In this document: one piece after another, positions 1,504 through 60,891 of the stretch | Layout: each line of letters starts with the position of its first letter | Position numbering within the stretch: the first letter of the stretch is position 1 | Assembly (NCBI RefSeq): GCF_900104025.1 | Contig: NZ_FNIQ01000005.1 | Coordinates: 124,001 to 188,000 of the forward strand | Source: Geodermatophilus sp. DSM 45219 | GTDB taxonomy: Bacteria > Actinomycetota > Actinomycetes > Mycobacteriales > Geodermatophilaceae | Direction: 5' to 3' | DNA length: 64,000 bases | Notes under the pieces: generated by a model | The model's input: only the letters and a program-made list of their open reading frames with translations | Database searches by the model: none | What the model was told of the DNA's origin: nothing | Made by a program: the position numbers and the translations under genes

Positions 1504-1562
1504 AAGGACCTCCCTGCCCCCCGCCACTCGCAAGCTCGCGGCGGGACCCTGCAGGGAGGCCA
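1504..1562. repeat. Dispersed palindromic repeat, family A, copy 1
   Basis: Imperfect palindrome placed between the hisN stop and the stop of the leftward 54-residue gene. The outer arms are AAGGACCTCCCTG and CAGGGAGGCC. An inner stem, CCCGCC/GGCGGG, surrounds the CTCGCAAGCTCG core. It can fold on either strand and is probably a bidirectional terminator. See the finding on family A. Confidence 0.75.
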
Positions 1563-1570
1563 CCCTGCAC

Positions 1571-1735
1571 CTAGCGGCCGTGACCGCCCTGGAAGCGGCG
1601 GCGCGCGTCGTCGATCTTCGCCCGGGTCTTCGGGTCCTTGGCCAGCTGCTGGGCCTTCTCGGTGGCCTGGCTGATGACCCGACGCCCCTTCGGGGTGTTG
1701 GCGAACTGGGCCAGCTTGCTGAACAGCGACGCCAT
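1571..1735 (-). CDS. Small basic helical protein, unknown
   Basis: 54-residue reading frame starting at ATG 1735 (MASLFSKLAQFANTPKGRR) and ending in an Arg/Gly-rich tail. The upstream sequence GAGGAGGACCTACCG gives a good ribosome binding site. The middle (TEKAQQLAKDPKTRAKID) predicts one amphipathic helix. Codon use has the strong third-position GC of real genes here. It lies 52 bp downstream of the sugar-kinase stop and could be the last gene of that operon. Small proteins of this appearance are common in actinobacteria, but I cannot assign a function. Confidence 0.65.
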   Translation of the reverse strand: MASLFSKLAQFANTPKGRRVISQATEKAQQLAKDPKTRAKIDDARRRFQGGHGR

Positions 1736-1787
1736 CGGTAGGTCCTCCTCGCGTCGTCCGGGCGGCTGCTCCGCCCTGCTGTGCCGC

Positions 1788-3188
1788 TCAACGCGGTGGT
1801 GCGGCTCCCCGTTCCGCGGACCAGCGGTCCCGCGCGGCGGTCAGCTCCGGCACCGGCCGGGGCTCGACCGGCCGGCCGGGCTCCTGCTCCGTCGCGACCT
1901 CGGTGCCCGTGCCGCGGGCGGCGAGCACCGCCGCGCCGACCGCCGAGGCGCTGCGGATCGGCAGGTACCGCACGGGGACGGCGAGGACGTCGGCGAGCAG
2001 CTGCTGGACGACGGCCGGCCGCCCACCACCCCCGGTGAGCGTGACCGGCCCCTCCCCGTCGAGCAGCTCCGCGGCCGCCGCGACCGCGAACGCGACGCCC
2101 TCCACGGCCGCTCGGGCCAGCTCGGCGCGGGTCGTGCCCGCGGACAACCCCGTCCAGCCGCCGCGGTCGGCCGGGCCCGCCACGCCGCCGCGCTCGCCGG
2201 TGAGGAACGGCCGGAAGACCACTCCCCCGGCGCCGGGCGGGACCGACGCCGCGGCGTCGAACAGCTCGGCGGGTGTCATCCCGAGCACGCCGCACACCCA
2301 CGTCCACGCCAGGCCGCCGTTCTGCAGCGCGGCCATCGCGTACCAGCCGTCCTCGACGTCGGCGTATCCGTGCACCGGCGGGTCGTCGGCCGGCGTCGGC
2401 GTCCACCCGGGCTGCAGCACCTGCGCACCGGTGCCGAGGTTGACCTGCCGGCCGGCCGTCGTCCCGGCGGCGAGCAGGGCCAGCGGGGTGTCCCCGCCAC
2501 CGACCACGACCGGCACCTCGCCGACCGGGAGTGCCGCGGTGCCCACGACCTCGGCCGAGGGCCGCACCACGGGCAGCTGCCCCGGGTCGACGCCGGCCAC
2601 GGTCACCGCCTCGGCCGACCAGCCGTCGGCGACGACGTCCCACAGCAGGGTGGCCGAGGCGTCGCTGCGGTCGGTGACCCGCGGGTCGGCGTCCGGCACG
2701 AGCGCGGCGCGCAGCACGTCCTTGGGCAGCAGCACGGTGGCCGCCCGCCCCAGCAGACCCGGCTCGTGCGCGGCCAGCCAGGCCAGCACGGGACCGGTCA
2801 TCCCCGGGACGAGCGGGTTGGCCAGCGCGGCACGGGCACCGTCGGGCAGCCCGTGCCAGCGCTGCACCTCGGCGCCGGCGCGGGAGTCCGGCCAGAGCAC
2901 GGCGGGCGCCAGCGGGGCGCCGGCGGCGTCGACCAGCACGGTGCCGTGCATCTGCCCGGACAGGCCCAGCCCGGCGACGCGGCGGCCGGCCAGCGCCGGG
3001 AGCACCCGGGCCAGCGCGTCGTCCACCGCCGCCCGCCACACGGCCGGGTCGGTCTGCGCCCAGCCGGGGCGCGGGCGGTCGACGTCGTAGCCGGACTCCG
3101 CCTCGGCCACCACGTCGCCGGAGGCGTCCAGCGCCAGCAGCTTCAGCCCGCTCGTGCCGAGGTCGACGCCGAGCAGGACGTCGCTCAC
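1788..3188 (-). CDS. xylB: Xylulokinase-type FGGY carbohydrate kinase
   Basis: Phosphorylates a ketopentose (D-xylulose in the type enzyme) with ATP, feeding the pentose phosphate pathway. The 466-residue protein has the full two-domain FGGY layout. It shows the N-terminal phosphate loop VDLGTSGLK, the substrate motif SGQMHG at 77-82, WPDSR at 99-103, the catalytic GGGDT with Asp233, and the C-terminal TGGGGR adenosine motif. The start ATG overlaps the stop of the upstream XdhC-like gene by 4 nt, so translation is probably coupled. No xylose isomerase is next to it; two aldo/keto reductases lie upstream in the same run, so the substrate may be a different sugar or polyol-derived ketose. Family is certain, substrate is inferred. 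Confidence 0.88.
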   Translation of the reverse strand: MSDVLLGVDLGTSGLKLLALDASGDVVAEAESGYDVDRPRPGWAQTDPAVWRAAVDDALARVLPALAGRRVAGLGLSGQMHGTVLVDAAGAPLAPAVLWPDSRAGAEVQRWHGLPDGARAALANPLVPGMTGPVLAWLAAHEPGLLGRAATVLLPKDVLRAALVPDADPRVTDRSDASATLLWDVVADGWSAEAVTVAGVDPGQLPVVRPSAEVVGTAALPVGEVPVVVGGGDTPLALLAAGTTAGRQVNLGTGAQVLQPGWTPTPADDPPVHGYADVEDGWYAMAALQNGGLAWTWVCGVLGMTPAELFDAAASVPPGAGGVVFRPFLTGERGGVAGPADRGGWTGLSAGTTRAELARAAVEGVAFAVAAAAELLDGEGPVTLTGGGGRPAVVQQLLADVLAVPVRYLPIRSASAVGAAVLAARGTGTEVATEQEPGRPVEPRPVPELTAARDRWSAERGAAPPR

Positions 3189-3688
3189 CGCGGTCGGTGC
3201 GCGGAGCCGCCGCTGCGGCCGTTGCGGTCGGCCAGCAGACCGGCCAGCGTGCTCAGCGCGATCTCCGCGGGGGTGCGCGAGCCGATGTCCAGCCCGATGG
3301 GCCGGTGCACGCGGGCGACCTCCTCGGGCGGGACGCCGAGGGCGGCCAGCGCCGCCACGTGCGGACCCTCGTGCCGCGGGTTGCCCATGACACCGACCCA
3401 GCGCACCCGCCGGGCCAGCGCGTCGCGCAGCACCTCGCCGAGCTCGGGCCGGTGGTGGTCGGTGACGACGACGTCGGCGTCGGACAGGTCCTCGGTGAGG
3501 TCGGCCAGCTCCACGACGCCGGCCCCGCGGGCGGGGTCGGGGTCGAGCAGCACCGTGCGGAACCCGAGTTCCGGCGCCCAGCGCTGCAGCACCTCGGCCA
3601 CGGGCGAGGCGAAGACGGCGACCAGCACCCGGCCGCTGGTCTCGTCGGCGGGCGCACCGTGCGCGACGCCGCAGTTCGGATCGCTCAC
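3185..3688 (-). CDS. Solitary XdhC-type Rossmann-domain protein
   Basis: 167-residue protein matching only the C-terminal Rossmann half of the XdhC/CoxF family, whose full-length members insert sulfurated molybdenum cofactor into xanthine dehydrogenase. Diagnostic segments are the nucleotide-fold start GRVLVAVFAS, VVVTDHH in the middle, WVGVMGNPRH, and the family-specific HRPIGLDIGSRTPAEIALS near the C-terminus. The N-terminal XdhC domain with its conserved cysteine is absent, and no molybdenum hydroxylase gene is in the window. It overlaps both neighbours by 4 nt (hydrolase upstream, sugar kinase downstream). It may be a remote molybdenum-enzyme helper or an NAD-binding protein recruited to this operon; neither can be decided here. 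Confidence 0.75.
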   Translation of the reverse strand: MSDPNCGVAHGAPADETSGRVLVAVFASPVAEVLQRWAPELGFRTVLLDPDPARGAGVVELADLTEDLSDADVVVTDHHRPELGEVLRDALARRVRWVGVMGNPRHEGPHVAALAALGVPPEEVARVHRPIGLDIGSRTPAEIALSTLAGLLADRNGRSGGSAHRPR

Positions 3689-5483: not shown

Positions 5484-5505
5484 CCGGGCATCCTCGCCGT
5501 CCCGG

Positions 5506-6285: not shown

Positions 6286-6399
6286 GCCCGGTCCGGTGCC
6301 CGCTGGGAGCGCAGCCGACACCCGGCGGGGACCGGTCCCGTCTGGTGGGATGGACGCTGACGGGCCGGCGACCGGCCGCCCGCCGAGGAGGGCCCTTCC

Positions 6400-8936: not shown

Positions 8937-8958
8937 CCGGGTCGTCGGTGACCGCGGT

Positions 8959-9017
8959 GGCCCCCTTGCAGGGTCCCACCGCGAGCCTGCGAGCGGTGGG
9001 GGGCAAGGGGGTCCTTT
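8959..9017. repeat. Dispersed palindromic repeat, family A, copy 2
   Basis: The best-formed copy. Outer arms GGCCCCCTTGC and GCAAGGGGGTCC enclose inner arms CCACCGC and GCGGTGG around a GAGCCTGCGAG core. It fills the gap between the convergent metB and map stops, ending two bases before the map stop triplet. A two-storey hairpin on both strands is consistent with bidirectional termination. Confidence 0.85.
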
Positions 9018-9018
9018 C

Positions 9019-9789
9019 TCAGCGCGGGGCGGTGAGGATCCTGGGGCCGTCGTCGGTGACCGCCACGGTGTGCTCGACGTGCGCCGCGCGGCTGCCGTCG
9101 GCGCTGTAGAGCGTCCAGCCGTCCGCGGCGACCCGGTAGTCGTCGCCGCCGCCGGCGAGGAACCACGGCTCGATCGCGATCACCAGGCCGGCGCGCAGCG
9201 GCAGGCCCCGCCCGGGACGGCCCTCGTTCGGCACGTGCGGCGCCTCGTGCATGGTGCGGCCCACCCCGTGCCCGCCCTGGTCGGTGTTGATGCCGCAGCC
9301 GCCGGCCCGGCCCACCGCGCCGATCGCCGCGGAGACGTCGCCGACCCGGTTGCCGACGACGGCCGCGGCGATCCCGGCCGCCAGCGCCCGCTCGGTGGTC
9401 GCCACGAGCTCGAGGTCCCCCGGCCGCGGCGTGCCCACCGGGAAGGTCACCGCGGCGTCGCCCACCCAGCCGTCGAGGGTGGCCCCGGCGTCGACGCTGA
9501 GCAGGTCGCCGTCCTCGAGCTCGGCCGGCGTCGGGATGCCGTGCAGCGCGACGTCGTTGACCGACAGGCAGACCACGCCCGGGAACGGCGGCGTGGTGGG
9601 CAGCGGGGCGTACCCGAGGAACGGCGAGGTCGCACCGGCGTCGTCCAGGACGGCGCGGGCCACCTCGTCGAGCTGGGTGAGCCGGACGCCCGGCGCCGCG
9701 GCGGCCCGGACGGCGGCGAGCATGTCGGCCACCACCGCTCCGGCGGCGCGCATGGCGTCCAGCTCGCCGGGCGTGCGCAGCTCGATCAC
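9019..9789 (-). CDS. map: Methionine aminopeptidase, type I
   Basis: Removes N-terminal methionine from nascent proteins; a cytosolic dinuclear metalloenzyme. The 256-residue protein has all family ligands in order: VALHGIPTP (His), LLSVDAGAT (Asp), WVGDAAVTF (Asp), QGGHGVGRTMHEAP (His), LVIAIEPWF (Glu) and AAHVEHTVAV (Glu). There is no N-terminal zinc-finger or SH3-binding extension. The GTG start at 9789 overlaps the stop of the upstream gene (GTGA), so the two are translationally coupled. Actinobacteria often carry two map genes; this one is not in the ribosomal-protein cluster and is probably the second copy. Confidence 0.92.
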   Translation of the reverse strand: MIELRTPGELDAMRAAGAVVADMLAAVRAAAAPGVRLTQLDEVARAVLDDAGATSPFLGYAPLPTTPPFPGVVCLSVNDVALHGIPTPAELEDGDLLSVDAGATLDGWVGDAAVTFPVGTPRPGDLELVATTERALAAGIAAAVVGNRVGDVSAAIGAVGRAGGCGINTDQGGHGVGRTMHEAPHVPNEGRPGRGLPLRAGLVIAIEPWFLAGGGDDYRVAADGWTLYSADGSRAAHVEHTVAVTDDGPRILTAPR

Positions 9790-11276: not shown

Positions 11277-11288
11277 AGGACGGGGCCG

Positions 11289-11663: not shown

Positions 11664-11737
11664 TAGCGGGGACAGGATTCGAACCTGTGACCTCTGGGTT
11701 ATGAGCCCAGCGAGCTACCGAGCTGCTCCACCCCGCG
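11664..11737 (-). tRNA. Initiator tRNA-fMet (CAU), copy 1
   Basis: 74-nt initiator tRNA read leftward. The anticodon loop is CTCATAA with anticodon CAT, on a stem ending in the three G-C pairs (GGG/CCC) typical of initiators. The acceptor begins CGCGGGG and pairs with CCCCGC, leaving position 1 mismatched with 72, another initiator hallmark. The T-arm reads ACAGGTTCGAATCCTGT. CCA is not encoded. TAGAGT, 9 nt or so upstream of the 5' end, is a plausible -10 element. Nearly identical to the copy at 14407-14480. Confidence 0.95.
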
Positions 11738-14402: not shown

Positions 14403-14418
14403 CTTGTAGCGGGGGCAG
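14403..14418. repeat. Right 16-bp direct repeat flanking the IS (target duplication)
   Basis: Second copy of CTTGTAGCGGGGGCAG. Its last 12 bases are part of the intact tRNA at 14407-14480, so the duplication preserved the tRNA 3' end when the IS inserted. Confidence 0.85.
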
Positions 14419-14480
14419 GATTCGAACCTGCGACCTCTGGGTTATGAGCCCAGCGAGCTACCGAGCTGCTCCACCCCGCG
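14407..14480 (-). tRNA. Initiator tRNA-fMet (CAU), copy 2
   Basis: 74-nt initiator tRNA read leftward, nearly identical to copy 1. It differs by a compensatory A-U to G-C pair at the base of the T-stem (GCAGGTTCGAATCCTGC). The anticodon stem keeps the three G-C pairs, and the 1:72 mismatch is present. CCA is not encoded. A TACAGT -10-like hexamer lies just upstream. The IS abuts its 3' end; the original terminator is about 1.35 kb away at 13017-13049, beyond the element. Confidence 0.95.
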
Positions 14481-17733: not shown

Positions 17734-18756
17734 TCAGCAGCCCGGCGGCGTCTCCCCGGCGCGGAGGTCCTCGAGCGCGGCCAGGGCGTCGTCGAGGGTC
17801 GACACACGGGCGAGGGTGAGCCCCGGCTGCGGGGCGGCCAGGGCCTCGGCGCAGTTGCCGGCCGGCACGAGGAAGAGCTCGGCACCGATCTCGGTGGCGG
17901 CGATCATCTTCAGCTGGATGCCACCGATCGGGCCGACCTCGCCGGTGGCGTCGATCGTGCCGGTGCCCGCGACCGTGGCGCCGCCGGTCAGGTCGGTGTC
18001 CCCGACCAGGTCGAGGATGCCGAGGCTCAGCATCAGCCCCGCGGACGGGCCGCCGACGTCCTCCACCGCGATGTCGACGTCGAAGGGCGCGGCGGGCTGC
18101 TCGCGGACGAGCACCCCGAGCACCGCCCCCTCCCCGTCCTCTGCGGTCCCGGTGGTGACCCTCGCCGTCCCGGGCTCGCCCAGGCGGGTGTAGCCGACCT
18201 CCACCGCCGTGCCGCCGGGGATCGAGCTCAGGACGGCGTCCAGCGCGGCGAGGTCGGGCGTGGGACGGCCCACGACGCTCTCGATCGCGTCGCCCTCCTG
18301 CAGCTCCCCCTCGGCCGGCGAGTCGTCGGAGAGGCCGCGCACGACCACCTTGACCGGGTGCCCGAGCTCGGCGAGGGCCGCGGCCTCGGCCGCCTCCTCG
18401 GAGGTCAGGAAGGCCTGCCGGTTGGCGTCGCGGGTCTCCTGCTCGCTGCGGCCCGGCGGGTAGACGGTCTCCTCGGGGACGACGCTGACCTCGTCGTCGA
18501 ACCAGCCCTGCACCGCCTCGACCAGGCTCAGCCCGGCCCGGCTGACGCCGACCGTGGTGAGGGTCAGCTCGCCCTCGGTCTCGTTGCGCTCGCGGCCCTC
18601 GACGCTGATGATCGGCTCGCCCTCGATCTCGCCGAGGGTGTCGAAGGTCGGGCCCGGCACCTGGGCCACGTAGGGCACCGGCACCGCCGCGCCGAGGACG
18701 CCGAAGACCACCAGCAGCACGACACCGACGCTGAGGACGGCCATCCGACGGGTCAC
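17734..18756 (-). CDS. YlbL-type PDZ-Lon protease, membrane anchored
   Basis: 340-residue membrane-anchored serine protease of the YlbL family. One N-terminal membrane helix (about 5-25, MAVLSVGVVLLVVFGVLG) is followed by a PDZ domain (about 120-200, GLSDDSPAEGELQEGDAIE) and a C-terminal Lon-type protease domain. The catalytic dyad is visible: Ser in VGGPSAGLMLSLG and Lys in GPIGGIQLKMIAA. GTG 18756 is chosen as start because TAAGCT lies 8 nt upstream, a leaderless layout; the frame is open to 18810. It is divergent from the DUF2342 gene. Family members act at the cell envelope; the substrate here is unknown. Confidence 0.9.
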   Translation of the reverse strand: MTRRMAVLSVGVVLLVVFGVLGAAVPVPYVAQVPGPTFDTLGEIEGEPIISVEGRERNETEGELTLTTVGVSRAGLSLVEAVQGWFDDEVSVVPEETVYPPGRSEQETRDANRQAFLTSEEAAEAAALAELGHPVKVVVRGLSDDSPAEGELQEGDAIESVVGRPTPDLAALDAVLSSIPGGTAVEVGYTRLGEPGTARVTTGTAEDGEGAVLGVLVREQPAAPFDVDIAVEDVGGPSAGLMLSLGILDLVGDTDLTGGATVAGTGTIDATGEVGPIGGIQLKMIAATEIGAELFLVPAGNCAEALAAPQPGLTLARVSTLDDALAALEDLRAGETPPGC

Positions 18757-18764
18757 GACCGGCG

Positions 18765-18770
18765 AGCTTA
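18765..18770 (-). promoter_or_regulatory. -10 hexamer (TAAGCT) of leaderless ylbL
   Basis: TAAGCT on the minus strand, 8 nt before GTG 18756. It supports the shorter start over the one at 18810. Confidence 0.5.
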
Positions 18771-18858
18771 TGTGGCTGTCCGGCTCGGGGCCGTCGCGCG
18801 GCGTACCCACCCGGTTGCGCTCCCGGCGGACGGAGGGTCCGCGGGGAGATCACGCGAC

Positions 18859-20321: not shown

Positions 20322-20379
20322 GGCCCCCTCCAGGGCACCGCCCCGAGCGTGCGAGGGGTGGGGAGGAGGGGGTCCTTCC
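20322..20379. repeat. Dispersed palindromic repeat, family A, copy 3
   Basis: Arms GGCCCCCTCC and GGAGGGGGTCC, inner CACCGCCCC and GGGGTGGGG, core GAGCGTGCGAG. It lies in the convergent gap between the DUF2342 and metallopeptidase genes. Confidence 0.8.
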
Positions 20380-21547: not shown

Positions 21548-21700
21548 GTGGCGGAGAGCTACAACGGCTACTGCGTGAAGTGCAAGGAGAAGCGCGACTT
21601 CGACGGTGAGGTCAAGGTCAGCGAGTCCGGCCGTCGCATGGCGCAGGGCACCTGCCCGGTCTGCGGCACGAAGATGAACCGGATCCTCGGCAAGGCCTGA
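21548..21700 (+). CDS. DUF5679 small zinc-ribbon protein
   Basis: 50-residue protein starting at GTG 21548 after a GAGACGAGGAGG ribosome binding site. Two CxxC pairs (YCVKCKEKRDF and GTCPVCGTKMNR) make a zinc ribbon. The length and the YNGYCVKCKEKRDFDGEV opening match DUF5679. Proteins of this kind are widespread in actinobacteria, with no demonstrated role; nucleic-acid binding is a reasonable guess. It is followed directly by a family A repeat. Confidence 0.88.
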   Translation: MAESYNGYCVKCKEKRDFDGEVKVSESGRRMAQGTCPVCGTKMNRILGKA

Positions 21701-21702
21701 GA

Positions 21703-21787
21703 GAGGACCACCCTTCCCCCACGCCTCGTGGAAGGACCCCGTCCTGCCCACCCTGCGCAGGCTCAGGGCGGGGCCCGGGACGGGGCC
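21703..21787. repeat. Dispersed palindromic repeat, family A, copy 4
   Basis: Begins 2 bp after the DUF5679 stop. It contains a partial unit (GAGGACCACCCTTCCCCCAC) followed by a full unit, AAGGACCCCGTCCTG to GGGACGGGGCC, around a GCGCAGGCTC core. Confidence 0.7.
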
Positions 21788-21923
21788 GGCGGGCCGCTGG
21801 AGGATGGCCGTTCCAGCACGTCACCACGGCGGCGGTGCCCGCACGGCGGGCGCCGCCGTTCGGCGTCCCGGAGCCTGTGGACGGACGCAGCGGACCGGGC
21901 CGGGACGCTGGCACCCTCCCGGC

Positions 21924-23107: not shown

Positions 23108-24430
23108 GTGACGGAGCCTGACCGGGGGATCCCACGAGGCTCGGTCTCACGGACCGCCCGGCTCGCCTCCCTGCCACTGGGCGCGGCCGGGCGGGCCACC
23201 CTCGGCATCGGCAAGCGGCTGTCCGGGCGCGACGCCGACGCGGTGAACGCCGAGCTCCAGCAGCGCACCGCCGAGCAGCTGTTCGCCGTCCTGGGACAGC
23301 TCAAGGGCGGGGCGATGAAGCTGGGCCAGACGCTGTCGGTGTTCGAGGCGGCGGTGCCCGAGGAGGTGGCCGCCCCCTACCGCGAGGCGCTGGTCAAGCT
23401 GCAGGAGGAGGCGCCGCCGATGCCGGTGCGCACCGTCCACGCGGTGCTCGCCCAGCAGCTCGGCGGCCGGTGGCGCGAGCGGTTCCGGCACTTCGACGAC
23501 GACCCGGCGGCCGCGGCCAGCATCGGCCAGGTCCACCGGGCGACCTGGCGCGACGGCCGGGACGTGGCGGTGAAGATCCAGTACCCGGGGGCGGCCACCG
23601 CGCTGATGGCCGACCTCAACCAGCTGGCCCGCTTCGCCCGGCTGTTCGCGGCGCTCTTCCCCGGCATGGACGTCAAGCCGCTGATCACCGAGCTCAAGGC
23701 CCGGGTGGTCGAGGAGCTGGACTACGGCATGGAGGCCGACTCCCAGCGGGCCTTCGCAGCCGCCTACGCCGACGACCCGGAGATCGTCGTCCCGCGGGTG
23801 GTGGCCAGCGCGCCGAAGGTGATCGTGTCGGAGTGGCTCGAGGGCAAGCCGCTGTCGAAGGTGATCGCCTCGGGCACGCGCGAGGAGCGCGACAAGGCAG
23901 GCCACCTGCTCGCCGTCCTGCACTTCTCCGCTCCGCAGCGGGCCGGCCTGCTGCACGCCGACCCGCACCCGGGCAACTTCCGGCTGACCCCCGACGGCCG
24001 CTTCGGGGTGATCGACTTCGGCGCCACCGCGCGGTTGCCCGACGGGCACCCCGAGCCGATCGGCCGGTTGCTGCGCTGGGCCCTGGAGGGCCGGGCCGAC
24101 GACGTGCTGGCCGACCTGCGCACCGAGGGGTTCGTCCGCCCGGGCGTGCAGGTCGACGCGCAGGGGGTGCTGGACTACCTGCTGCCGCTGCTCGAGCCGA
24201 TCCAGCAGCGGCCGTTCCACTTCACGCGGGCGTGGATGCAGGAGCAGGCCACCCGCATCGCCGACCCGCGCACGGAGGCCAACCGGCTGGGCCGGATGCT
24301 CAACCTGCCGCCGGCCTACCTGCTCATCCACCGGGTGACCATCGGGTCGATCGGGGTGCTCTGCCAGCTCGACGCCTCCGACGACTACCGCGCCGTGATC
24401 GAGGAGTGGCTGCCCGGCTTCACCGGCTGA
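23108..24430 (+). CDS. ABC1/AarF-UbiB atypical kinase
   Basis: 440-residue member of the ABC1 (AarF/UbiB) atypical protein-kinase family. The family motif KLGQTLSVFEAAVP (the KxGQ motif) is near residue 76. The Ala-rich loop AAASIGQVHRATWRDGRDVAVKIQYPG includes the nucleotide Lys. EELDYGMEADSQ, the catalytic-loop HADPHPGNF and the metal-binding VIDFGATA all follow in order. The start is GTG 23108 with GAGGAGGATGC in front. Family members act on isoprenoid-quinone metabolism or as ATPases; the role in actinobacteria is not settled. No membrane helix is obvious. Confidence 0.92.
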   Translation: MTEPDRGIPRGSVSRTARLASLPLGAAGRATLGIGKRLSGRDADAVNAELQQRTAEQLFAVLGQLKGGAMKLGQTLSVFEAAVPEEVAAPYREALVKLQEEAPPMPVRTVHAVLAQQLGGRWRERFRHFDDDPAAAASIGQVHRATWRDGRDVAVKIQYPGAATALMADLNQLARFARLFAALFPGMDVKPLITELKARVVEELDYGMEADSQRAFAAAYADDPEIVVPRVVASAPKVIVSEWLEGKPLSKVIASGTREERDKAGHLLAVLHFSAPQRAGLLHADPHPGNFRLTPDGRFGVIDFGATARLPDGHPEPIGRLLRWALEGRADDVLADLRTEGFVRPGVQVDAQGVLDYLLPLLEPIQQRPFHFTRAWMQEQATRIADPRTEANRLGRMLNLPPAYLLIHRVTIGSIGVLCQLDASDDYRAVIEEWLPGFTG

Positions 24431-24450: not shown

Positions 24451-24516
24451 AAGGGCCCCGTCTCCCCACCCCTCGCAGGCTCAGGGCGGGTCCCGGGACA
24501 GGGCCGGCGGGACCCT
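24451..24516. repeat. Dispersed palindromic repeat, family A, copy 5
   Basis: Unit GAAGGGCCCCGTCTCC to GGGACAGGGCC around a CCTCGCAGGCTC core, 20 bp after the aarF stop. Confidence 0.65.
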
Positions 24517-24550
24517 GCGCCGGAGCGTCCGGACCCGGCCTCGGTCGGGA

Positions 24551-24688
24551 TGGTCCCGTCCTCACCCCTCGCCCCGAGCGGAGCGAGGGGTGAGGCGGAC
24601 GGGCGGCCCCGCTGCAGGGGCCCACCGCCGGCCCCGTCCCGAGGCTCGCGCCGAGCTTGCGAGGCGTGAGGAGGACGGGGTCCTTCCA
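24551..24688. repeat. Dispersed palindromic repeat, family A, copy 6 (composite)
   Basis: Two modules back to back. The first is GTCCTCACCCCTCGC with GCGAGGGGTGAGGCGGAC (24557-24600). The second runs from GCCCCGTCCCGAGGCTCG to GAGGAGGACGGGGTCCTTCC (24630-24688). It looks like one copy inserted in or fused to another, in the convergent gap between aarF and the 54-residue gene. Confidence 0.65.
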
Positions 24689-39005: not shown

Positions 39006-42000
39006 TCAGCGGGCCGTTCCGGTGACCAGGGCGAGCAGGCCGGCCTCGTCGAGCAGGTCGACCGGGCGGACGGTGACCCCGGCGGCGACGTGGTGGAAGC
39101 CGGCGCTGACCCGCTCGACCGGGACGCCGGTCAGCCGCGCCCAACCCAGGCGGTAGGCGGCCAGCTGCACCCCGGCGGCGGCCAGCTCGGCACCGGACGG
39201 CGGTGGGCCGGTCTTCCAGTCGATGACCTCGTAGCCACCGTCCCCGTCGCCGAACACCGCGTCGATCCGCCCGCGCAGGGTCAGCGGCCCCAGGGGCGTC
39301 TCGAACGGCACCTCGACCTCCAGCGGCTGGCGGTCGGCCCACTCACCGGCGAGGAACGCCTCCTGCAGCTCGGCCAGCGCGCTGTCGGGTGCGGCGAACT
39401 CGTCGCCCGAGCCGGGCAGCTCGTCGAGGTCGACCAGCCGGGAGGCGCCGAAGCGCTCCTCCAGCCAGGCGTGGAAGGCGGTGCCGCGCCGGGCCAGCGG
39501 AGCGGGCGCGGCCGGCATCGGGCGGCGCAGCCGGCGGGCCAGCTCGGCGGGGTCGCGGCGCAGCGTCACCAGCGCCGACACCGACAGGTGCGAGGGCAGC
39601 GGGACCTCGACGGTCGGGCTGGCCGACCTCGCCCGCTCGCGCAGCAGCAGGTCGGCGTCGCGCACCCACTGGTCGACCAGCGGATCGGGGTGGCCGAGGC
39701 GGGCGTCGGTCTCCAGCGGGTGCGCCGCGGACCCGGCGACCAGCTCGGCGGCCGCGGTGAGCGCGCGCCGCCGTCCGGGGGCGAGCGGGTCGGCGGGCCA
39801 GACGCCGACCGGCCACTCCTCCAGGGCGGGGTTGGTCGCGCCGTCCTCGGGCGCCGGCGCCCAGTGCACGACCGTGCCGGCGCCGCCCTCGCAGGCCTCG
39901 CGGACGGTGTGCAGCAGGGACGATGGCCCGTTCGGCCGCACCCCGTCGCGCCACCAGCTGCCCGAGCAGACCAGCAGGTGGCGGGCGCGGGTCACCGCGA
40001 CGTAGCCGAGCCGGACCTCCTCGCCGGTGCCGAAGCGCTTCCACTCCTCGACGTACTCCTCCAGCGACTGCGAGAGCACCTTCTGGTCACCGGAGCCGGG
40101 CACCGGGCGGCGCCACTGCGGCAGCTCCGCGCGGTCGACGGTGCGCAGCTCGGCCGGCACCGCGCCCGGGTCACGGATCCAGGAGTCGGCGACCCCGGGC
40201 TTGGCCGGGAACTGGTCCTCGGTCATGCCGGGGACCGCGACGACGTCCCACTCCAGCCCCTTGGCCGAGTGCCCGGTGAGCAGTTGCACCGCCTCCGGGT
40301 TGACCGCGACCTCGCCGGGCTCCAGCCCGCGCTCGCGCTCCTCGGCGTCGCGGAGGTAGCCCAGGAAGGCCGGCAGCGAGGGCAGCTCGGCCAGCTCGGT
40401 GAACTGGGCGGCCACGCCGTGCAGGGCGTCGAGGTGGGCGCGGGCACCGGCCGGGCTGACGTCGGGTGCGCTGGCCAGCTCGGTCTCCAGGCCCAGGGTG
40501 CGGGCCACCTCGTCGACCAGGTCGGGCAGCGACTCCCCCAGCCGCGCCCGCAGCCCGGACAGCTCCGCGCCGAGCCGCCGCAGCCGGCGGTACCCCTCGG
40601 CCGACCAGGCGTCGGCGTCCCCGAGGTCGTCGAGGGCCTCGACGATGCTGCCCCGCTCGGTCGGCGGCTCCTCGCGGCCGCCGGCCGCGCGCTCGGGGCG
40701 GCGGGCGTGCACCAGCGTCCGGGCGCGGGACTCCAGCGCGGCGAGGTCGCGCGGGCCGATCCGCCAGCGGGCGCCGGTGAGCAGCCGGCCGAGGGCGTCA
40801 CCGGCGGTCGGGTCGACCAGCACGGTGAGCGCGGCGACGACGTCGGACACCTCGGGCACCTCGAGCAGCCCGCCCAGCCCGACCACCTCCACCGGCACGT
40901 CCCGCTCGCGCAGCGCGGCGGCGATGCCGGGCAGCTGCTTGCGGGTGCGGGCGAGGACGGCGACCGTCGGCGGGCGGCCGTCGGGACGGCGGGTGAGGAC
41001 GGCGTCCGTGCCGTGCCAGCAGGCGGCCAGCCGGTCGGCCAGCGCGGCGGTCTCCTCGGCGACGGTCCGGTACAGGCCGACGGTGACCGAGCCCCGCCCG
41101 GCGGTCGGCGCGGGAGCCAGGTCGGGCAGCGGCACCTCGGGCTCGGGCAGCACGGCCGACACGGCGTTGGCCACGGCGAGCACGGCCTCGTCGTTGCGCC
41201 AGCTGGTGGCCAGGGTGAGCCTCTCGGCCCGGCGGTCTCCGGTGCCGGGGAAGGTCCGCGGGAAGCGCTCGATGGTGCCCGCCGAGGCACCGCGCCAGCC
41301 GTAGATGGACTGGCGCGGGTCGCCGACGGCGAGCACCGGGTGCCCGGTCGCCCGCCCGAACAGCGCCTCGAGCATGCGCAGCTGGCCGACGCTGGTGTCC
41401 TGGTACTCGTCGAGGAGCACCACCGTCCAGCGGGCGCGCTCGCGGCGGCCGACCTCTGCTGCTGCCACCGCGATCCGGGCGGCGTGCGCCACCTGGTCGG
41501 CGTAGTCGATGGAGCCCATGGCCCGCTTGCGCGCCTCGAACGCCTCGACCAGCGGCAGCAGCGCCACCCGCGCCCGCTGCCGGGCGAGCACGTCGAGCAC
41601 GTCCTTGTACGGCCCGCGCTTCTTCGGGGCGTCGGGGTAGCCGTGCACCTGCGCCTCGAGGCTCGCCGTCCAGGCCCGCAGCGCGGTCGGGGTGATGTCG
41701 TGCTCGCCCATGTCGGCGGCCAGCGCCAGCACGTCCTCGACCGTGGTGAGCAGCGACAGCGGGACGTCGTCCATGTCGCCGGTGTACGCGGCGACCACCT
41801 GGGTGGCCTGCCCCCAGCACATGGCCGGGCCGAGGACGCCGGCGCCGGGTTCCACGCCGATCCGCAGCCCGTGCTCGGCGACGAGCGAGGCGGCGTAGCC
41901 GTGGTAGGTGGCCACCGTCGGCCGGGCGATCTCCAGCCGGTCCTTCAGCTCCCGCTCGGTGTCCGGGTGGCGGGCCAGGGCCCCCAGCCGGAGGTGGATG

Positions 42001-42365
42001 CGCTCGTTGAGCTCGCTGGCGGCCTTGCGGGTGAAGGTCAGGCCGAGGACGGCCTCGGGCTCGACGACCCGGTTGGCGACCAGCCAGGAGACCCGCGCGG
42101 CCATCGTCTCGGTCTTGCCCGAGCCCGCGCCGGCGACCACCACGAGCGGCCGGTCGGCCGGGGCCTCGACGACCCGTGCCTGCTCGGGCGAGGGCGCGTA
42201 GGACAGCCCGCAGCGCGCGGCCACCTCGGCCGGGGTGAGCAGTCGCCGTGGCTCGGGCCGGGGCGCGCTCTCACCGCCGAGCAGGTCGTCGAAGGAGAGC
42301 TGGTGAAGGACCCCGTCCTCCTCCCCGCTCGCAGGCTCGCGGGGGGAACCGGAATCGGGCCTCAC
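39006..42365 (-). CDS. adnB: AdnB subunit of the AdnAB helicase-nuclease
   Basis: Motor-nuclease subunit that with AdnA resects DNA double-strand breaks. The 1119-residue protein has an SF1 motor (Walker A AGAGSGKT at 78-85, VVLLDEYQDTSVGQL, VGDPRQSIYGWRGA, LLTGHSAKGLEWDVV, LGYVAVTRARH). A C-terminal RecB-like nuclease is marked by GRIDAVFGDG and YEVIDWKTG near residue 1050. GTG 42365 overlaps the adnA stop (GTGA), so the subunits are coupled in the usual adnA-adnB order. Codons 5-20 come from a family A palindromic repeat that lies inside the gene. Mycobacterial AdnB is of similar length. Confidence 0.92.
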   Translation of the reverse strand: MRPDSGSPREPASGEEDGVLHQLSFDDLLGGESAPRPEPRRLLTPAEVAARCGLSYAPSPEQARVVEAPADRPLVVVAGAGSGKTETMAARVSWLVANRVVEPEAVLGLTFTRKAASELNERIHLRLGALARHPDTERELKDRLEIARPTVATYHGYAASLVAEHGLRIGVEPGAGVLGPAMCWGQATQVVAAYTGDMDDVPLSLLTTVEDVLALAADMGEHDITPTALRAWTASLEAQVHGYPDAPKKRGPYKDVLDVLARQRARVALLPLVEAFEARKRAMGSIDYADQVAHAARIAVAAAEVGRRERARWTVVLLDEYQDTSVGQLRMLEALFGRATGHPVLAVGDPRQSIYGWRGASAGTIERFPRTFPGTGDRRAERLTLATSWRNDEAVLAVANAVSAVLPEPEVPLPDLAPAPTAGRGSVTVGLYRTVAEETAALADRLAACWHGTDAVLTRRPDGRPPTVAVLARTRKQLPGIAAALRERDVPVEVVGLGGLLEVPEVSDVVAALTVLVDPTAGDALGRLLTGARWRIGPRDLAALESRARTLVHARRPERAAGGREEPPTERGSIVEALDDLGDADAWSAEGYRRLRRLGAELSGLRARLGESLPDLVDEVARTLGLETELASAPDVSPAGARAHLDALHGVAAQFTELAELPSLPAFLGYLRDAEERERGLEPGEVAVNPEAVQLLTGHSAKGLEWDVVAVPGMTEDQFPAKPGVADSWIRDPGAVPAELRTVDRAELPQWRRPVPGSGDQKVLSQSLEEYVEEWKRFGTGEEVRLGYVAVTRARHLLVCSGSWWRDGVRPNGPSSLLHTVREACEGGAGTVVHWAPAPEDGATNPALEEWPVGVWPADPLAPGRRRALTAAAELVAGSAAHPLETDARLGHPDPLVDQWVRDADLLLRERARSASPTVEVPLPSHLSVSALVTLRRDPAELARRLRRPMPAAPAPLARRGTAFHAWLEERFGASRLVDLDELPGSGDEFAAPDSALAELQEAFLAGEWADRQPLEVEVPFETPLGPLTLRGRIDAVFGDGDGGYEVIDWKTGPPPSGAELAAAGVQLAAYRLGWARLTGVPVERVSAGFHHVAAGVTVRPVDLLDEAGLLALVTGTAR
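42306..42351. repeat. Dispersed palindromic repeat, family A, copy 7 (inside adnB)
   Basis: AAGGACCCCGTCCTCCTCCC, then the core CGCTCGCAGGCTCGCGGGG. It lies 14 nt inside the adnB start and is translated as SGSPREPASGEEDGVL. The usual second outer arm is worn (GGAACCGG). Confidence 0.75.
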
Positions 42366-45618: not shown

Positions 45619-45942
45619 TCAGGGCCAGGCGACGGCGGACAGGTCGATGCGACCCGAGCGCACCGGCACCCCCTCGGCGGCGAGCAGCGCGAACTGCTCC
45701 ACGCGGACCGGCTCGGCGACCGAGCCGTCGGCCCGGACCACGCGGTGCCAGGGCACCGCTCCCCCGCCCTGCGACAGCGCGCGGGCGACCCGCCGGGGCC
45801 CGACGCCGACCAGCCGGCCGACGGCACCGTAGGTGCTCACCCGCCCGGCCGGGATCCGCTCCACGACGTCGAACACCGCCTCGTCCACGTCCAGCGGCGA
45901 GGTCCCCGGTGGCGGCGGTCCGGCGGGCGCCGGGGGGCTCAC
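45619..45942 (-). CDS. Alkyltransferase-like protein (MGMT fold, Cys replaced by Trp)
   Basis: 107-residue alkyltransferase-like (ATL) protein. The DNA-binding core [20 protein letters not shown], then [20 protein letters not shown], matches the MGMT C-terminal domain. The acceptor cysteine of PCHRV is replaced by Trp (PWHRV), so it cannot transfer the alkyl group. Known ATL proteins bind O6-alkylguanine and direct it to nucleotide excision repair. GTG 45942 overlaps the upstream gene's stop (GTGA). It lies just before adnA, in a cluster of DNA-repair genes. Confidence 0.9.
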
Positions 45943-46886
45943 CGCACGTAGTCGCTGTTCGTCGTCCACCACTCGTAGAGCGCGGCGAGGTCGGCCTGGG
46001 TGCCGCCCTCCCCGACGACGATGCCCTCGGTGAGCGCGACGTCGTCGGTCCAGTAGAGCCACGGCCGGCCGTCGATGAGCGCGCAGGCCAGCTGCCCCGA
46101 GCTGCCGGCGCCCGACCACTCGCCGATGCCCTGGCTGCCGATGCAGTCGGGCTCGCCGGGGAACTCGGGGAAGCCGCGACCCTCGACGTCCCGGCTGAAC
46201 ACCTCGTCCAGGGTCGCCTTGTCGGCGTAGAGGTGGAACTGCGCCTCCGTGGGACCCGGCTGGGTGAGCGCCGCGCCGCAGGTGGCCGCGGCGATGTCGC
46301 CGTCGCCCGCCAGCTCGCGTTCGGAGCAGCCGGTGAGGTCGACCGGCAGGGTGGCGACGAAGTCCAGGCTCGGCGCGGGCGCGGGCGCGGGGGCGACCGG
46401 CGTCGGCGGGGGCAGAGGTGGCGGCAGCGGGGTGCGGCCGGGGGACGGCGACCGCGACGGGCGGGCCGGCTCGCTGGAGGACGCGGTGGCCGCAGCGGGC
46501 GCCGGGTCGTCGTCGTCCCCCAGCGCCAGGAACAGGGTGGCGGCGATGGCGATGACCAGCACGACCCCGGCGACCAGCGCGACGACGAGCCCCTGCCGGC
46601 CCGGCCTCCCGCCGCCGGGTCCACCGGGGGCGCCGTACGAACCGGGCGCGCCGTACGGACCGGGCGCGCCGTACGGACCGGGTGGACCGTACTGACCGGG
46701 TTGGCCGTACTGACCGGGTTGGCCGTACTGGCCCGGAACTCCGTACTGGCCAGGGGGGCCGGGCTGGGCGGGAGGGCCGTACGGACCGGGCTGCGACGGC
46801 TGCCCGGCCCAGCCGCCCTGCGCGGGCGGCTGCCCCGGTCCGCCGGAGGGGTTGTACGGGTCCGGGCCTGAGGGCGGCTGGCTCAT
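45939..46886 (-). CDS. Membrane protein with Pro/Gly/Tyr repeats and kinase-like sensor domain
   Basis: 315-residue single-pass protein. Residues 1-95 are low complexity with short repeats ([11 protein letters not shown], then [14 protein letters not shown]). One transmembrane helix lies at about 100-122. A Pro/Ala/Ser linker (125-172) leads to an extracytoplasmic domain with cysteines at 187, 203, 248 and 268 and a terminal WW at 306-307. These spacings and the text around them ([35 protein letters not shown]) parallel the outer domain of the kinase at 34606-36240. The start is ATG 46886 with AGGAGG upstream. It is coupled by overlap to the ATL gene. Function is unknown. Confidence 0.75.
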
Positions 46887-46971
46887 GCGGAGCACCTCCT
46901 GCTGGTCACGGGCACCGCAGCGTAGAGGCGGCGTGCCCGGCAGGTGGGCGTCTCCTGCGCGGCTCCCGGGG

Positions 46972-47556: not shown

Positions 47557-47576
47557 GCGGTCAGTAGACAGCGAGA

Positions 47577-47613
47577 GGGCCCGGTCCGCCCCGTACGGGA
47601 GCAGACCGGGCCC
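47577..47613. terminator. Hairpin between moeZ and the DinB-fold gene
   Basis: Stem GGGCCCGGTC (47577-47586) and GACCGGGCCC (47604-47613). It lies beyond the family A repeat that follows moeZ; probably a second terminator, or part of the leader of the leftward gene. Confidence 0.5.
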
Positions 47614-47630
47614 AGGTGAGTTGCTGGAAC

Positions 47631-47688
47631 GGCCCCCTCGCAGGGTCCCGGCCCGAGCGGAGCGAGGGTAGGGGGCGAGGGGGTCCTT
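47631..47688. repeat. Dispersed palindromic repeat, family A, copy 8
   Basis: GGCCCCCTCGCAGGG to CGAGGGGGTCCTT around CCGAGCGGAGCGAGGG. It touches the moeZ stop codon (47689) directly, so it acts as the immediate 3' end of that gene. Confidence 0.8.
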
Positions 47689-48849
47689 CTAATAGGTCGG
47701 CAGCGCCTTGTCGATGCGCGTGGCCCAGGCGGTGACGCCGCCCTGCACGTGCACGGCGTCGGAGAAGCCGGCGTTCTTCACCGCGGCGAGCACCTCGGCC
47801 GAGCGGACGCCGGTCTTGCAGTGCAGCACGATCGGCTTGTCCTGCGGCAGCTCCGCGAGCGCGCGGCCGGAGAGGATCTCGTCCTTGGGGATCAGCTTCG
47901 CGCCGGGGATCGAGACGATCTCGTACTCGTTGGGCTCCCGGACGTCGATCAGCTCGAAGTCCTTGCCGGCGTCCATCATGTCCTTGAGCTCGTCGACGGT
48001 GATCGTCGAGCCCGCGGCGGCCTCCTGGGCCTCGGTGGACACGACCCCGCAGAAGGTCTCGTAGTCGATCAGCCCGGTGATCGGCTCGGCATCGGGGTCC
48101 TTGCGCACCTTGATGGTGCGGAAGGTCATCTCCAGGGCGTCGTAGACCATCAGCCGGCCGAGCAGCGTCTCGCCGATGCCGGTGATGAGCTTGACCGCCT
48201 CGGTGGCCTGGATGGCGCCGACGGTCGCGCACAGCACGCCGAGCACGCCGCCCTCCGCGCAGGAGGGGACCATGCCGGGCGGCGGCGGCACCGGGTAGAG
48301 GTCGCGGTAGTTGGGCCCGTGCTCGTTCCAGAAGACCGAGACCTGGCCGTCGAAGCGGTAGATCGAGCCCCAGACGTAGGGCTTGCCCAGCAGCACGCAC
48401 GCGTCGTTGACGAGGTAGCGCGTGGCGAAGTTGTCGGTGCCGTCGACGATGAGGTCGTACTGGCCGAAGATCTCCATCACGTTGTCGCTGTCCAGCCGCG
48501 TCTCGTGCAGGCGGACGTCGACGAGCGGGTTGATCTCCTTGATGGAGTCCCGCGCGCTCTCGGCCTTGGACCGGCCGACGTCGGAGGCGCCGTGGATGAT
48601 CTGCCGCTGCAGGTTCGACTCGTCGACGACGTCGAACTCGACGATGCCGAGCGTGCCGACCCCCGCCGCGGCGAGGTACATGAGCACCGGCGAGCCGAGG
48701 CCGCCGGCGCCGACGGCGAGCACCTTGGCGTTCTTCAGCCGCTTCTGACCGTCCATCCCGACGTCGGGGATGATCAGGTGACGGCTGTACCGCCGGACCT
48801 CCTCGATCGAGAGGTCCTCGGCGGGCTCCACCAGGGGTGGCAGGGACAC
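47689..48849 (-). CDS. moeZ: MoeZ sulfurtransferase-adenylyltransferase
   Basis: 386-residue fusion of an E1-like (MoeB/ThiF) domain and a C-terminal rhodanese domain. It adenylates and thiocarboxylates small sulfur carriers for molybdopterin, thiamine and CysO-type cysteine synthesis. The ATP loop is VLAVGAGGLGSPVLMYLAAA; other E1 landmarks are RQIIHGASDVGRSKAESA and IVDGTDNFATRYLVND. The rhodanese active loop is HCKTGVRS, with the persulfide Cys. There is no CxxC zinc site. The start is GTG 48849 with GAGGAG upstream. Followed directly by a palindromic repeat. Confidence 0.94.
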   Translation of the reverse strand: MSLPPLVEPAEDLSIEEVRRYSRHLIIPDVGMDGQKRLKNAKVLAVGAGGLGSPVLMYLAAAGVGTLGIVEFDVVDESNLQRQIIHGASDVGRSKAESARDSIKEINPLVDVRLHETRLDSDNVMEIFGQYDLIVDGTDNFATRYLVNDACVLLGKPYVWGSIYRFDGQVSVFWNEHGPNYRDLYPVPPPPGMVPSCAEGGVLGVLCATVGAIQATEAVKLITGIGETLLGRLMVYDALEMTFRTIKVRKDPDAEPITGLIDYETFCGVVSTEAQEAAAGSTITVDELKDMMDAGKDFELIDVREPNEYEIVSIPGAKLIPKDEILSGRALAELPQDKPIVLHCKTGVRSAEVLAAVKNAGFSDAVHVQGGVTAWATRIDKALPTY

Positions 48850-52272: not shown

Positions 52273-52279
52273 CCGGTCG

Positions 52280-54413: not shown

Positions 54414-54642
54414 GGGAATCGGCGAGCCCTCGGGTTCGCTGGTGCATCTGCGCGCTGACGACCGCTGGAGACGACGCCCCGAGGGGTTTCCTCCCGGACC
54501 GACACCGAGGTGCGGCCCGGTTTCTGCTGGCCGCGTCGGCGCTGGAACCGATCCCGCGACACCCGACCGGGACTGGTGCGACAGCGGCGCGATCGCGCCT
54601 CCGGAGCCGGTCCCCCAGCAGACCAGAGGCGAGACACCGACC

Positions 54643-56274: not shown

Positions 56275-56285
56275 GCACCGGTCGG

Positions 56286-57428: not shown

Positions 57429-57473
57429 CGTGCCTCCCGGCAGCGGTGGCGCGGGCGGGGTTCACTGGGCGCC

Positions 57474-59272: not shown

Positions 59273-60149
59273 CGTCGTCCAACTCGCGGCGGGCCGCGGC
59301 GAGCACCGCGGCGGCCACCCGGTCCAGCGAGGGTGAGCGCAGCCGCCACTGCTGCCAGTGCAGGACGACGTCGACCGCGCCGTCCGGGTCCAGCGCGACG
59401 AGCTCACCGGCGGGCTCCTGCTGCGCCGGCACCATGCCCCACCCGAGGCCCAGCCGCACCGCGCTGACGTAGTCGGCGGACGCCGGCACGTGGTGCACCG
59501 GCGGGACGGCGCCGACCCCGCGCTGCCGCAGGTAGCGGTGCTGCAGGTCGTCCCGCCGGTCGAAGACCACCACCGGCGCGCGCCCGAGTGCGGCCGGGTG
59601 GACGCCGTCGGCGAACCACCGGCCCGCGAAGGCAGCGGTGGCCATCGGCCGGTAGCGCATGCTGCCCAGCCGGGTCACGGTGCACCCCGGGACCGGCTCG
59701 GCGTCGGCGGTGACCGCGGCCATCACCCGCCCGTCGCGGAGCAGCGCGGCGGTGTGCTCCTGGTCCTCGCGGTGCAGGTCGAAGGCGAGCTCGCCGGCCA
59801 GCGGGGCGAGCGCGGGCAGCACCCAGGTGGCCATCGAGTCGGCGTTGACCGCGATCGGCAGGGTCACCGGGTCGTGCTCCCCGTCCGCGGCGAGCTCGCG
59901 GGTGGCGTCCGCGGTCAGCAGGGCCACCTGGCGGGCCAGCCGGAGCACCGCCTGCCCGGACTCGGTGACCCGCACCGGCCGGCTGCGCACCAGCAGCACC
60001 CGGCCGGTCGCCGTCTCCAGGGCCTTGAGCCGCTGGCTGATCGCGCTCGGTGTCACGTGCAGTGCCCGGGCGGCGCCGTCCAGCGTGCCCGCGGTGACGG
60101 TCGCCTCCAGCGCCCGGAGCTGGGCCAGGTCGAGGTCCACAGCCACCAT
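59262..60149 (-). CDS. lysG: LysR regulator, ArgP/LysG family
   Basis: 295-residue LysR regulator of the ArgP/LysG branch, which senses basic amino acids. The HTH is at about 18-65 ([20 protein letters not shown]). The family-specific [12 protein letters not shown] and [12 protein letters not shown] stretches appear in the effector domain. It is divergent from lysE, the classic partner, with about 70 bp between them. ATG 60149 is the start; GTG 60140 is an alternative. It probably activates lysE when lysine or arginine builds up. Confidence 0.9.
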
Positions 60150-60204
60150 CAGACCAGCTACAGGTGCGAAAGGAACATGAGCGGAACTGGCGGACGTCGC
60201 CGCC

Positions 60205-60210
60205 TACCGT
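60205..60210 (+). promoter_or_regulatory. -10 hexamer (TACCGT) of leaderless lysE
   Basis: TACCGT 7 nt before GTG 60218, in the divergent lysG-lysE gap that should also hold the LysG operator. Confidence 0.5.
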
Positions 60211-60217
60211 CGCCCGG

Positions 60218-60835
60218 GTGACCCCCGCGCTGCTCGCCGCCGTCTCGGGCCTCGGGCTCGGCCTGTCCCTGATCGTGGCGATCGGGGCGCAGAACGCCTT
60301 CGTGCTGCGCCAGGGTCTGCGCACGGAGCACGTCGCCGCCGTCGTCGCCGTCTGCCTGCTCTCCGACGCCGTCCTGATCGCCGCGGGCACGGCCGGGGCG
60401 GGGGCGCTGGTGACCCGGGTGCCGGAGCTGCTCACCGTCGTCTGCCTGGCCGGCGCGGCCTTCCTGCTGGCCTACGGAGCGATGGCCGCGCGGCGGGCGG
60501 TGCGCCCGGCCGCGCTCGTGACCGAGGAGGCCGGACGCCGGGCCGGGCTGCTGGTCACCGTGACCACCTGCCTGGCGCTGACCTGGCTCAACCCGCACGT
60601 CTACCTGGACACCGTGGTCCTGCTCGGCTCGCTGGCCAGCACCTGGGACGACGACCGGTGGTGGTTCGCCGCCGGCGCCGCGGTGGGCAGCACGCTGTGG
60701 TTCGTCGGCCTCGGCTACGGGGCGCGGCTGCTGCGCCCGCTGTTCGCCCGGCCGTCGTCGTGGCGGGTCCTCGACGCGGTCATCGCGGTCGTCATGGTGA
60801 CCCTGGCCGCGGGGCTCGTCGTCCGCGCGGTCTGA
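60218..60835 (+). CDS. lysE: LysE-family amino-acid exporter
   Basis: 205-residue membrane exporter for basic amino acids, with the usual five to six helices. The family start [20 protein letters not shown] and the conserved [20 protein letters not shown] segment near residue 125 are both present. GTG 60218 is chosen from the leaderless hexamer. Divergent from the LysG/ArgP regulator, as in Corynebacterium. Cytoplasmic membrane location. Confidence 0.93.
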
Positions 60836-60891
60836 GAGGACCCCCTGCCCCCCACCACTCGCGAGCTCGCGGCGGGGCCCTGCAGGGGGCC
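60836..60891. repeat. Dispersed palindromic repeat, family A, copy 9
   Basis: GAGAGGACCCCCTGCCCCCC to GCAGGGGGCC around CTCGCGAGCTCGC. It begins at the base after the lysE stop, convergent with the RecB-nuclease gene. Confidence 0.8.

Follow-up and report, generated by a model that had tools for sequence, protein, structure and literature searches.

A stop-anchored palindromic repeat family of Geodermatophilaceae, probably a non-autonomous mobile element of the REP kind

The window analysed here, a 64,000-nt stretch of the genome of Geodermatophilus sp. DSM 45219 (NZ_FNIQ01000005.1, positions 124,001 to 188,000), carries nine copies of an imperfect palindrome of 55-58 nt, located by a model scan. 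We consider these repeats to be, probably, a non-autonomous mobile palindrome of the repetitive extragenic palindromic (REP) kind, specific to Geodermatophilaceae, a family of soil bacteria. Within the genomes searched, the repeat is confined to this family: it occurs in all 26 genomes of the genus, that of DSM 45219 included, and in 34 of the 37 family genomes among the 61 scanned, the three without it being drafts of 2.9-3.7 Mb. The same model scan found it in none of 24 genomes from other families of the order, and none of 295 other genomes of the class, partly the same as those 24, yielded it among the best 19 candidates per genome at E <= 1e-5.

The 4.97-Mb genome of DSM 45219 (12 contigs) holds at least 151 model matches, and relative G024 at least 150. 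An evenly spaced 400-kb sample of the former contains 16 copies, which gives an estimate of ~200 per genome; at nine in 64 kb against 16 in the 400-kb sample, the window is densely populated. On the single-contig chromosome of G024 the copies are unevenly placed among the matches listed (p = 0.0015, with a rounded genome length), the fewest lying opposite dnaA (four in that tenth, against 28 in the fullest tenth). Plasmids and phages gave no match to one 62-nt copy used as query, nor did viral contigs to one exact pattern. We found no description of this repeat family in the literature on Geodermatophilaceae palindromic repeats and on actinobacterial REPs and REP-associated tyrosine transposases (RAYTs), a coverage in which subscription papers were mostly absent. 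The main text of the RepRanger paper (PMC12306157), which lists three Actinomycetota, mentions neither Geodermatophilus nor Blastococcus, and that of the paper describing GTAG and CGTC REPs (PMC3733652) does not mention Geodermatophilus.

All nine window copies score 59-80 bits against the model built from them, and the next match in the window scores 25 bits. They end in AAGGACC, or a near variant, on one side and in GGCC on the other, and most have a CTCGCANGCTCG-like apex. The fold comprises an outer stem of 10-11 pairs with one bulged base, usually A, in the left arm, and an inner stem of about eight pairs with an asymmetric bulge on the right side; some copies also carry a 16-nt tail, GTTCCAGYACGTCACC, which brings the unit up to ~74 nt. 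Folding is not unusually strong in every case: when ten stretches (the nine copies and a hairpin at 24551) were folded, z exceeded -1 in three: 21690-21794, 24451 (+0.82) and 60836.

The most distinctive property of the repeat is its anchoring to stop codons. Genes in the window and in the rest of this genome are our own codon-bias calls, and the genome-wide set of 125 copies consists of 130 model matches (16 from the sample and 114 others) less duplicates and matches shorter than 50 nt; it favours high scorers except for the 16 from the sample. Six of the 125 have no parsable AAGG end, which leaves 119 in some counts. Of the copies situated between co-directional genes, 56 turn the AAGG end to the upstream stop and 11 are oriented the opposite way (p = 2e-8 for the orientation bias); the others lie in convergent gaps (39), in divergent gaps (4), inside calls (10) or at locus edges (5). 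Leaving out the last two classes, as the context null does, 67 of 110 copies are in tandem, 39 in convergent and 4 in divergent gaps, against 277, 71 and 74 of 422 gene junctions. The AAGG end begins exactly 2 nt past the stop in 42 copies before filtering, and in 41 of the 95 filtered copies with a same-strand upstream gene, where 2.5 would be expected and none of 20,000 simulations exceeded 10; 56 copies begin 0-5 nt from the stop, against 15 expected. In all, the AAGG end falls -3 to 5 nt from a same-strand stop in 67 of the 125 copies; in 11 the GGCC end is no more than 3 nt away from an opposite-strand stop, and in four both ends are so placed. Distances of 0 and 2 nt are also the commonest in the syntenic stretches of relatives (10 and 15 of 63 copies, orthologous sites being counted repeatedly).

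This spacing may be traced to a four-base foot in front of the hairpin. Among 40 copies that are neither stop-adjacent nor nested by a strict pattern, the foot has G in 62%, T in 42%, A in 40% or G in 38%, and G in 85%, so that its consensus away from stops is G-T-(A/G)-G, a degenerate GTAG, and GTAG is the most frequent foot 4-mer (11 of 119 copies). In stop-adjacent copies the foot is mainly G-A-A-G, its GA being part of TGA. The exact 2-nt spacing would then most simply result from a 4-nt foot that overlaps TGA, and the 0-nt spacing from a foot that overlaps TAG. TGA codons at distance 2 are preceded by C in 37 of 41 cases, against 62% of TGA stops (p = 4e-5). CTGA is, however, absent from all 40 other copies, so we abandoned the idea that it is a general target and preferred the explanation by the foot.

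The copies and related features in the window are as follows.

1504-1561, forward strand: copy, 58 nt, 2 nt after the TGA (stop 1499-1501) of an inositol-monophosphatase-family gene, in a convergent gap
8959-9016, reverse strand: copy, 58 nt, 2 nt after the TGA of a peptidase M24 gene (9019-9789, reverse), in a convergent gap
11277-11287, forward strand: probable deletion scar, AGGACGGGGCC, after a TGA; a full copy stands there in relative G016
20322-20377, reverse strand: copy in a convergent gap, abutting no called stop
21703-21731, forward strand: left half of an older copy, 2 nt after the TGA of a DUF5679 gene (21548-21700), split by the copy at 21732
21732-21787, forward strand: full copy lying in the older copy's apex loop
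21788-21825, forward strand: right half of the older copy (21788-21809) with its 16-nt tail GTTCCAGCACGTCACC (21810-21825)
21826-21859, forward strand: separate GC hairpin outside the repeat and likely the true terminator; 19 of 20 relatives have it, whether or not they carry the repeat
24451-24505, forward strand: copy whose arms have decayed and which seems to lie within a degenerate copy following a TGA at 24428-24430
24550-24610: different strong hairpin (-48.3 kcal/mol), no clear family member, scoring 18 bits on the forward and 25 bits on the reverse strand
24605-24629, reverse strand: an older copy's right half, with the arm CAGCGGGG
24630-24685, reverse strand: full copy lying in that older copy's apex loop
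24686-24711, reverse strand: left half of the same older copy, 3 nt after a TGA at 24717-24715
42306-42361, forward strand: recent copy where the stop and start of two UvrD-helicase/PD-(D/E)XK genes overlap as GTGA, abutting the TGA in reverse
47576-47614, reverse strand: separate GC hairpin, likely the true terminator; 15 of 18 relatives have a counterpart, some alongside the repeat and some without it
47615-47630, reverse strand: 16-nt tail, GTTCCAGCAACTCACC
47631-47688, reverse strand: copy directly after the TAG of a ThiF/rhodanese gene (47689-48849, reverse), a site occupied in most relatives
60836-60891, forward strand: copy directly after the TGA (60833-60835) of a LysE-family gene, in a convergent gap

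A preliminary description of this DNA had also counted nine copies, and that number stands, but two of its positions do not: 21703 is the broken outer copy around the one at 21732, 24551 is the other hairpin, and the copy at 24630 had been missed. Its five gaps between convergent stops are found with our gene calls as well (those with 1504, 8959, 20322, 24451/24630 and 60836), and its remark that several copies begin within 0-25 nt of a stop understates the case, the copies at 1504 and 8959 lying at exactly 2 nt, those at 60836 and 47631 directly behind a stop and the one at 42306 abutting a stop in reverse.

Elsewhere in the window, two similar tRNA genes (11664-11737 and 14407-14480, both reverse) about 2.7 kb apart lie in an 88% identical 104-nt repeat, and 18-nt tandem repeats (46606-46790) lie inside a called gene (45939-46895, reverse).

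Evidence that the repeat has moved comes from the copy at 42306. Compared with relatives G005 and G008 it is a clean 57-nt insertion, in frame, one base past the upstream TGA and without target duplication: the filled site reads GAGCTGG[TG AAGGACC...GGGC]CTCACC and the empty one GAGCTGG-CTCACC (G005) or GCTGG-CTCAC (G008). The two bases next to the hairpin arrived with the insertion, which adds 19 codons at the start of the gene at 39006-42365 (reverse) if the GTG at 42365 is its start, and none of the 18 relatives with the upstream gene has a model match within 200 nt of this site. The absence of a target duplication here, at the one clean empty/filled site, speaks against the idea that the repeat is a miniature inverted-repeat transposable element (MITE) derived from a DDE-type insertion sequence. 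The repeat shares with such elements its small size, many copies and inverted repeats; it is, however, one continuous bulged hairpin rather than a core flanked by terminal repeats, and we consider this origin very improbable, in an analysis that did not look for a parent insertion sequence.

The helicase-nuclease junction that holds the 42306 copy in the window is occupied in four relatives by a second repeat family. This family is ~77-82 nt long and resembles mycobacterial interspersed repetitive units (MIRUs); it begins with GTGAGCGAGCTCGCGAGC or similar, ends with the ribosome-binding-like GCGAGGAGG and often with a CGTGA start/stop overlap. We noted it in relatives (L138:8616-8697, L140:11129-11210, L144:8091-8172, L147:9954-10035) and in the genome of DSM 45219 (L038:12251; L039:10337, 12327 and 14349; L046:14376-14688), where L046 contains a tandem array of four 77-nt units.

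Copies also lie inside one another. By a strict pattern, 15 of 119 copies in the genome are situated in the loop of another copy, and more appear so by eye. In the window the older copy split by the one at 24630 has arms that still pair, and the outer copy at 21703 is unsplit in relatives G003 (L119), G008 and G021; relative G012 shows the same nesting at this site plus a further insert. That insert (L126:14578-14694), palindromic, ~60 nt long and with GGAGAATCC...GGATTCTC arms, occupies the nested copy's own loop and is of a different kind. The suggestion in the preliminary description that the family might be a mobile REP-like sequence thus gains support from the clean 42306 insertion and the nested copies.

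Orthologous gene ends show how occupancy varies. Behind the DUF5679 gene (21700), ten of 20 relatives have a model match; of the other ten, two have a copy recognisable by eye, one a doubtful copy and seven none. Behind the ThiF/rhodanese gene (47689), a same-strand model match adjoins the gene end in 13 of 18 relatives, G003 has a reverse-strand match 45 nt on, the hairpin in G005 seems by eye to be reversed, L148 holds a possible remnant, and L142 and L152 have none. At this site the same sub-type recurs in Blastococcus Ac-2987 and Modestobacter Ac-2986, and six other Blastococcus rows and three Klenkia rows have no model match (10 of 28 loci match). From the comparisons at 42306, 21700 and 47689, together with the scar at 11277-11287 as set against G016, it follows that some copies are old or recurrent, some have been lost through internal deletion and some are recent. 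Behind the stop of the orthologue of 17734-18810, G014 (L127) carries a ~15-nt tandem array (CGGCGGCCCTGCTGA).

The arms of the repeat vary together, as the preliminary description had stated. In the nine window copies 89.4% of cells are paired, against 76.9% after shuffling, both sides have changed at 9 of 18 pairs, and none of 500 shuffles scored as high on any of five measures, in a test on nine sequences that are the same ones used to draw the structure; sliding the partner columns by 1-3 destroys the pairing. In the genome, the 8-nt outer arms are perfectly complementary in 86 of the 108 copies, out of 114, whose arm could be parsed, several discrete arm types occur, each matched on both arms, and a single type is present on both arms in 44 of the 108. 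The outcome that was to refute the preliminary description, a lack of gene-end enrichment and of covariation between the arms, was not obtained. At the 47689 site, where the copies carry differing arm and loop types, 88.9% of cells are paired in 18 orthologous copies, against 75.6% shuffled, in an alignment to which six of 18 syntenic relatives (L138, L142, L143, L145, L148, L152), without a plain copy, contribute no row. The covariation score there exceeds all 500 shuffles, while the pair-count and type-count measures are reached by 44 and 88 of them.

Both-arm changes are thus also seen between copies at one orthologous gene end, and pairing at 47689 has been kept despite sequence change. 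The preliminary description had read the paired changes as selection for the fold, and the changes at a single orthologous site agree with that, but the pattern would be no different after template switching within the hairpin (quasi-palindrome correction) or after one copy has been replaced by another. The discrete arm types matched on both arms, and the differing arm and loop types at one orthologous site, speak for such copying processes, although a folded transposition substrate under selection would show the identical picture. In our view the chances of this account, as against selection, are evenly balanced. It concerns the covariation only and is compatible with a REP-like mobile element.

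Covarying hairpins at gene ends had also suggested bidirectional intrinsic terminators of transcription held there by selection. The hairpins are stable, they lie at gene ends, with 39 of 110 in convergent gaps and nearly none in divergent ones, and in G013 (at 21700) and G005 (at 47689) the repeat seems to be the only strong hairpin and may stand in as terminator. However, the repeat has no T-tract (at least four T in 8 nt in one of 125 copies), and at 16 copies per 400 kb, or an estimated ~200 per genome, it cannot be a general terminator. At distances of 0-2 nt past the stop, moreover, the hairpin would be covered by the terminating ribosome. Separate hairpins are present at both gene ends compared. 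At 21700 a CGGCGG...CCGCCG hairpin lies downstream in 18 of 20 relatives and a variant of it in one more, the exception being G013, which has the repeat only; at 47689 a hairpin with arms of at least 12 bases was found in 15 of 18 relatives and not in G003, G015 or G005. Because they are present both with and without the repeat, these separate hairpins are likely the terminators in most of the relatives at these two gene ends. The exceptions of the G013 and G005 type leave room for the repeat to act as one, but the repeat is probably not the terminator, and we judge a terminator role for the family quite unlikely.

A related proposal is that the repeat controls translation or mRNA stability, a hairpin within 15 nt of the stop slowing terminating ribosomes. 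The 41 of 95 copies at exactly 2 nt lie inside the distance at which E. coli REPs, up to 15 nt from the stop, act on translation according to earlier work cited in the RepRanger paper (PMC12306157), and pairing between copies is kept at 47689. By this analogy an effect of the repeat on translation termination is possible. At 47689, however, presence and orientation of the repeat differ between species whose gene is 94-97% identical (the G005 reversal being judged by eye), which indicates that the gene does not need the repeat, and an effect on expression may be a result of the insertion and not its reason. We therefore regard control as a rather unlikely reason for the repeat's presence; any effect on the upstream gene would be secondary.

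We return to the mobile REP-like palindrome, which several observations weigh against. The preliminary description had suggested looking for a linked RAYT, and the RAYT/Y1 transposase family (PF01797) was detected in none of 112 family genomes, with five of 14 control genomes positive. No transposase-like gene was recognised between neighbouring copies, where the genes resemble housekeeping genes, in an inspection by eye of the first 70 residues with no family search run. Insertion into the lagging strand might produce a replication-strand bias, and none of significance appears in G024 (84 of 150 on the leading strand among the matches listed, p = 0.16). The empty site is exactly resolved for one insertion only, and some copies share one gene end across several genera, so that current movement is not proven. 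Finally, the foot consensus is weak at its middle positions, and among the 40 copies that give it are some adjoining an opposite-strand stop and some that, by eye, seem to be nested.

We suggest that the repeat moves, or moved in the past, as folded single-stranded DNA through a REP-type reaction, with an enzyme that may have been lost or has gone unrecognised. The mobile unit would consist of the 4-nt foot, the 55-58-nt bulged hairpin (AAGGACC...GGGGCC, apex CTCGCANGCTCG) and sometimes the 16-nt tail; it would be recognised by its hairpin and inserted without target duplication. Overlap of the foot with a stop, GTAG supplying TAG and T+GANR supplying TGA, would place the hairpin 0 or 2 nt behind it, and insertions elsewhere in genes or in promoters would seldom be retained. 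The apex loops of older copies may serve as landing sites for new ones, and older copies may be lost via internal deletion of the hairpin. Only tentatively do we extend this to a palindrome directed to stops throughout the family by a foot overlapping TGA or TAG, and moved by something other than RAYT or IS200-IS605 transposases.

REP-like elements for which no transposase is known pose an open puzzle, and the CGTC class is one of them as presented in PMC3733652. Here an abundant repeat occurs in most of the sampled genomes of one actinobacterial family. With relatives to compare, a cleanly empty site and a stop preference exact almost to the base, the spread of such an element becomes directly testable, as does the effect on expression of a hairpin 2 nt behind a stop. 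The repeat also cautions against reading a terminator into every hairpin with covarying arms at a gene end.

Among known systems, the attC sites of integrons are imperfect bulged hairpins directly behind stop codons, and in this the Geodermatophilaceae repeat is like them. No integron integrase was detected alongside it, however: TIGR02249 gave no match reaching the cut-off in any of 37 genomes (23 from this genus), and weaker XerC/D-like matches turned up in every one of the 37 as well as in 14 of 14 controls. The attC core boxes were not seen in the repeat by eye, no scan having been run. MIRUs insert at DTGA. Like them, the repeat is short, actinobacterial and placed at gene junctions, and the copy at 42306 occupies a stop/start overlap of the form GTGA; whereas MIRUs are described as carrying an open reading frame coupled to the next gene (PMC12548453), it is a hairpin behind stops, and in 37 of 41 copies the base before the TGA at distance 2 is C. 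The palindromic elements of rickettsiae can lie in frame within genes (PMC2229807), as the 42306 copy does, although that is the one in-frame case established here and most copies lie at gene ends.

The closest comparison is with the REPs themselves. The CGTC class, for which the source consulted knows no dedicated transposase (PMC3733652), resembles the repeat in this respect, but CGTC directly after GGCC is found in none of 125 copies (in four of 125 with the unadjusted model end). GTAG REPs are described as high-copy extragenic palindromes of 20-40 bp with GTAG at one end, mostly between genes, with some units inside them, whose tag often supplies a TAG stop to flanking open reading frames (PMC3733652). 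The Geodermatophilaceae repeat differs in being longer (55-58 nt) and bulged, in a foot that is only loosely GTAG and mostly involves TGA with a 2-nt offset, in the nesting of copies in apex loops and in coming without a detected RAYT. Like GTAG REPs it is extragenic, predominantly intergenic with some copies inside genes, and present in more than 100 copies per genome. In Geodermatophilaceae, where the usual enzyme was not found, the repeat is REP-like and resembles known REPs.

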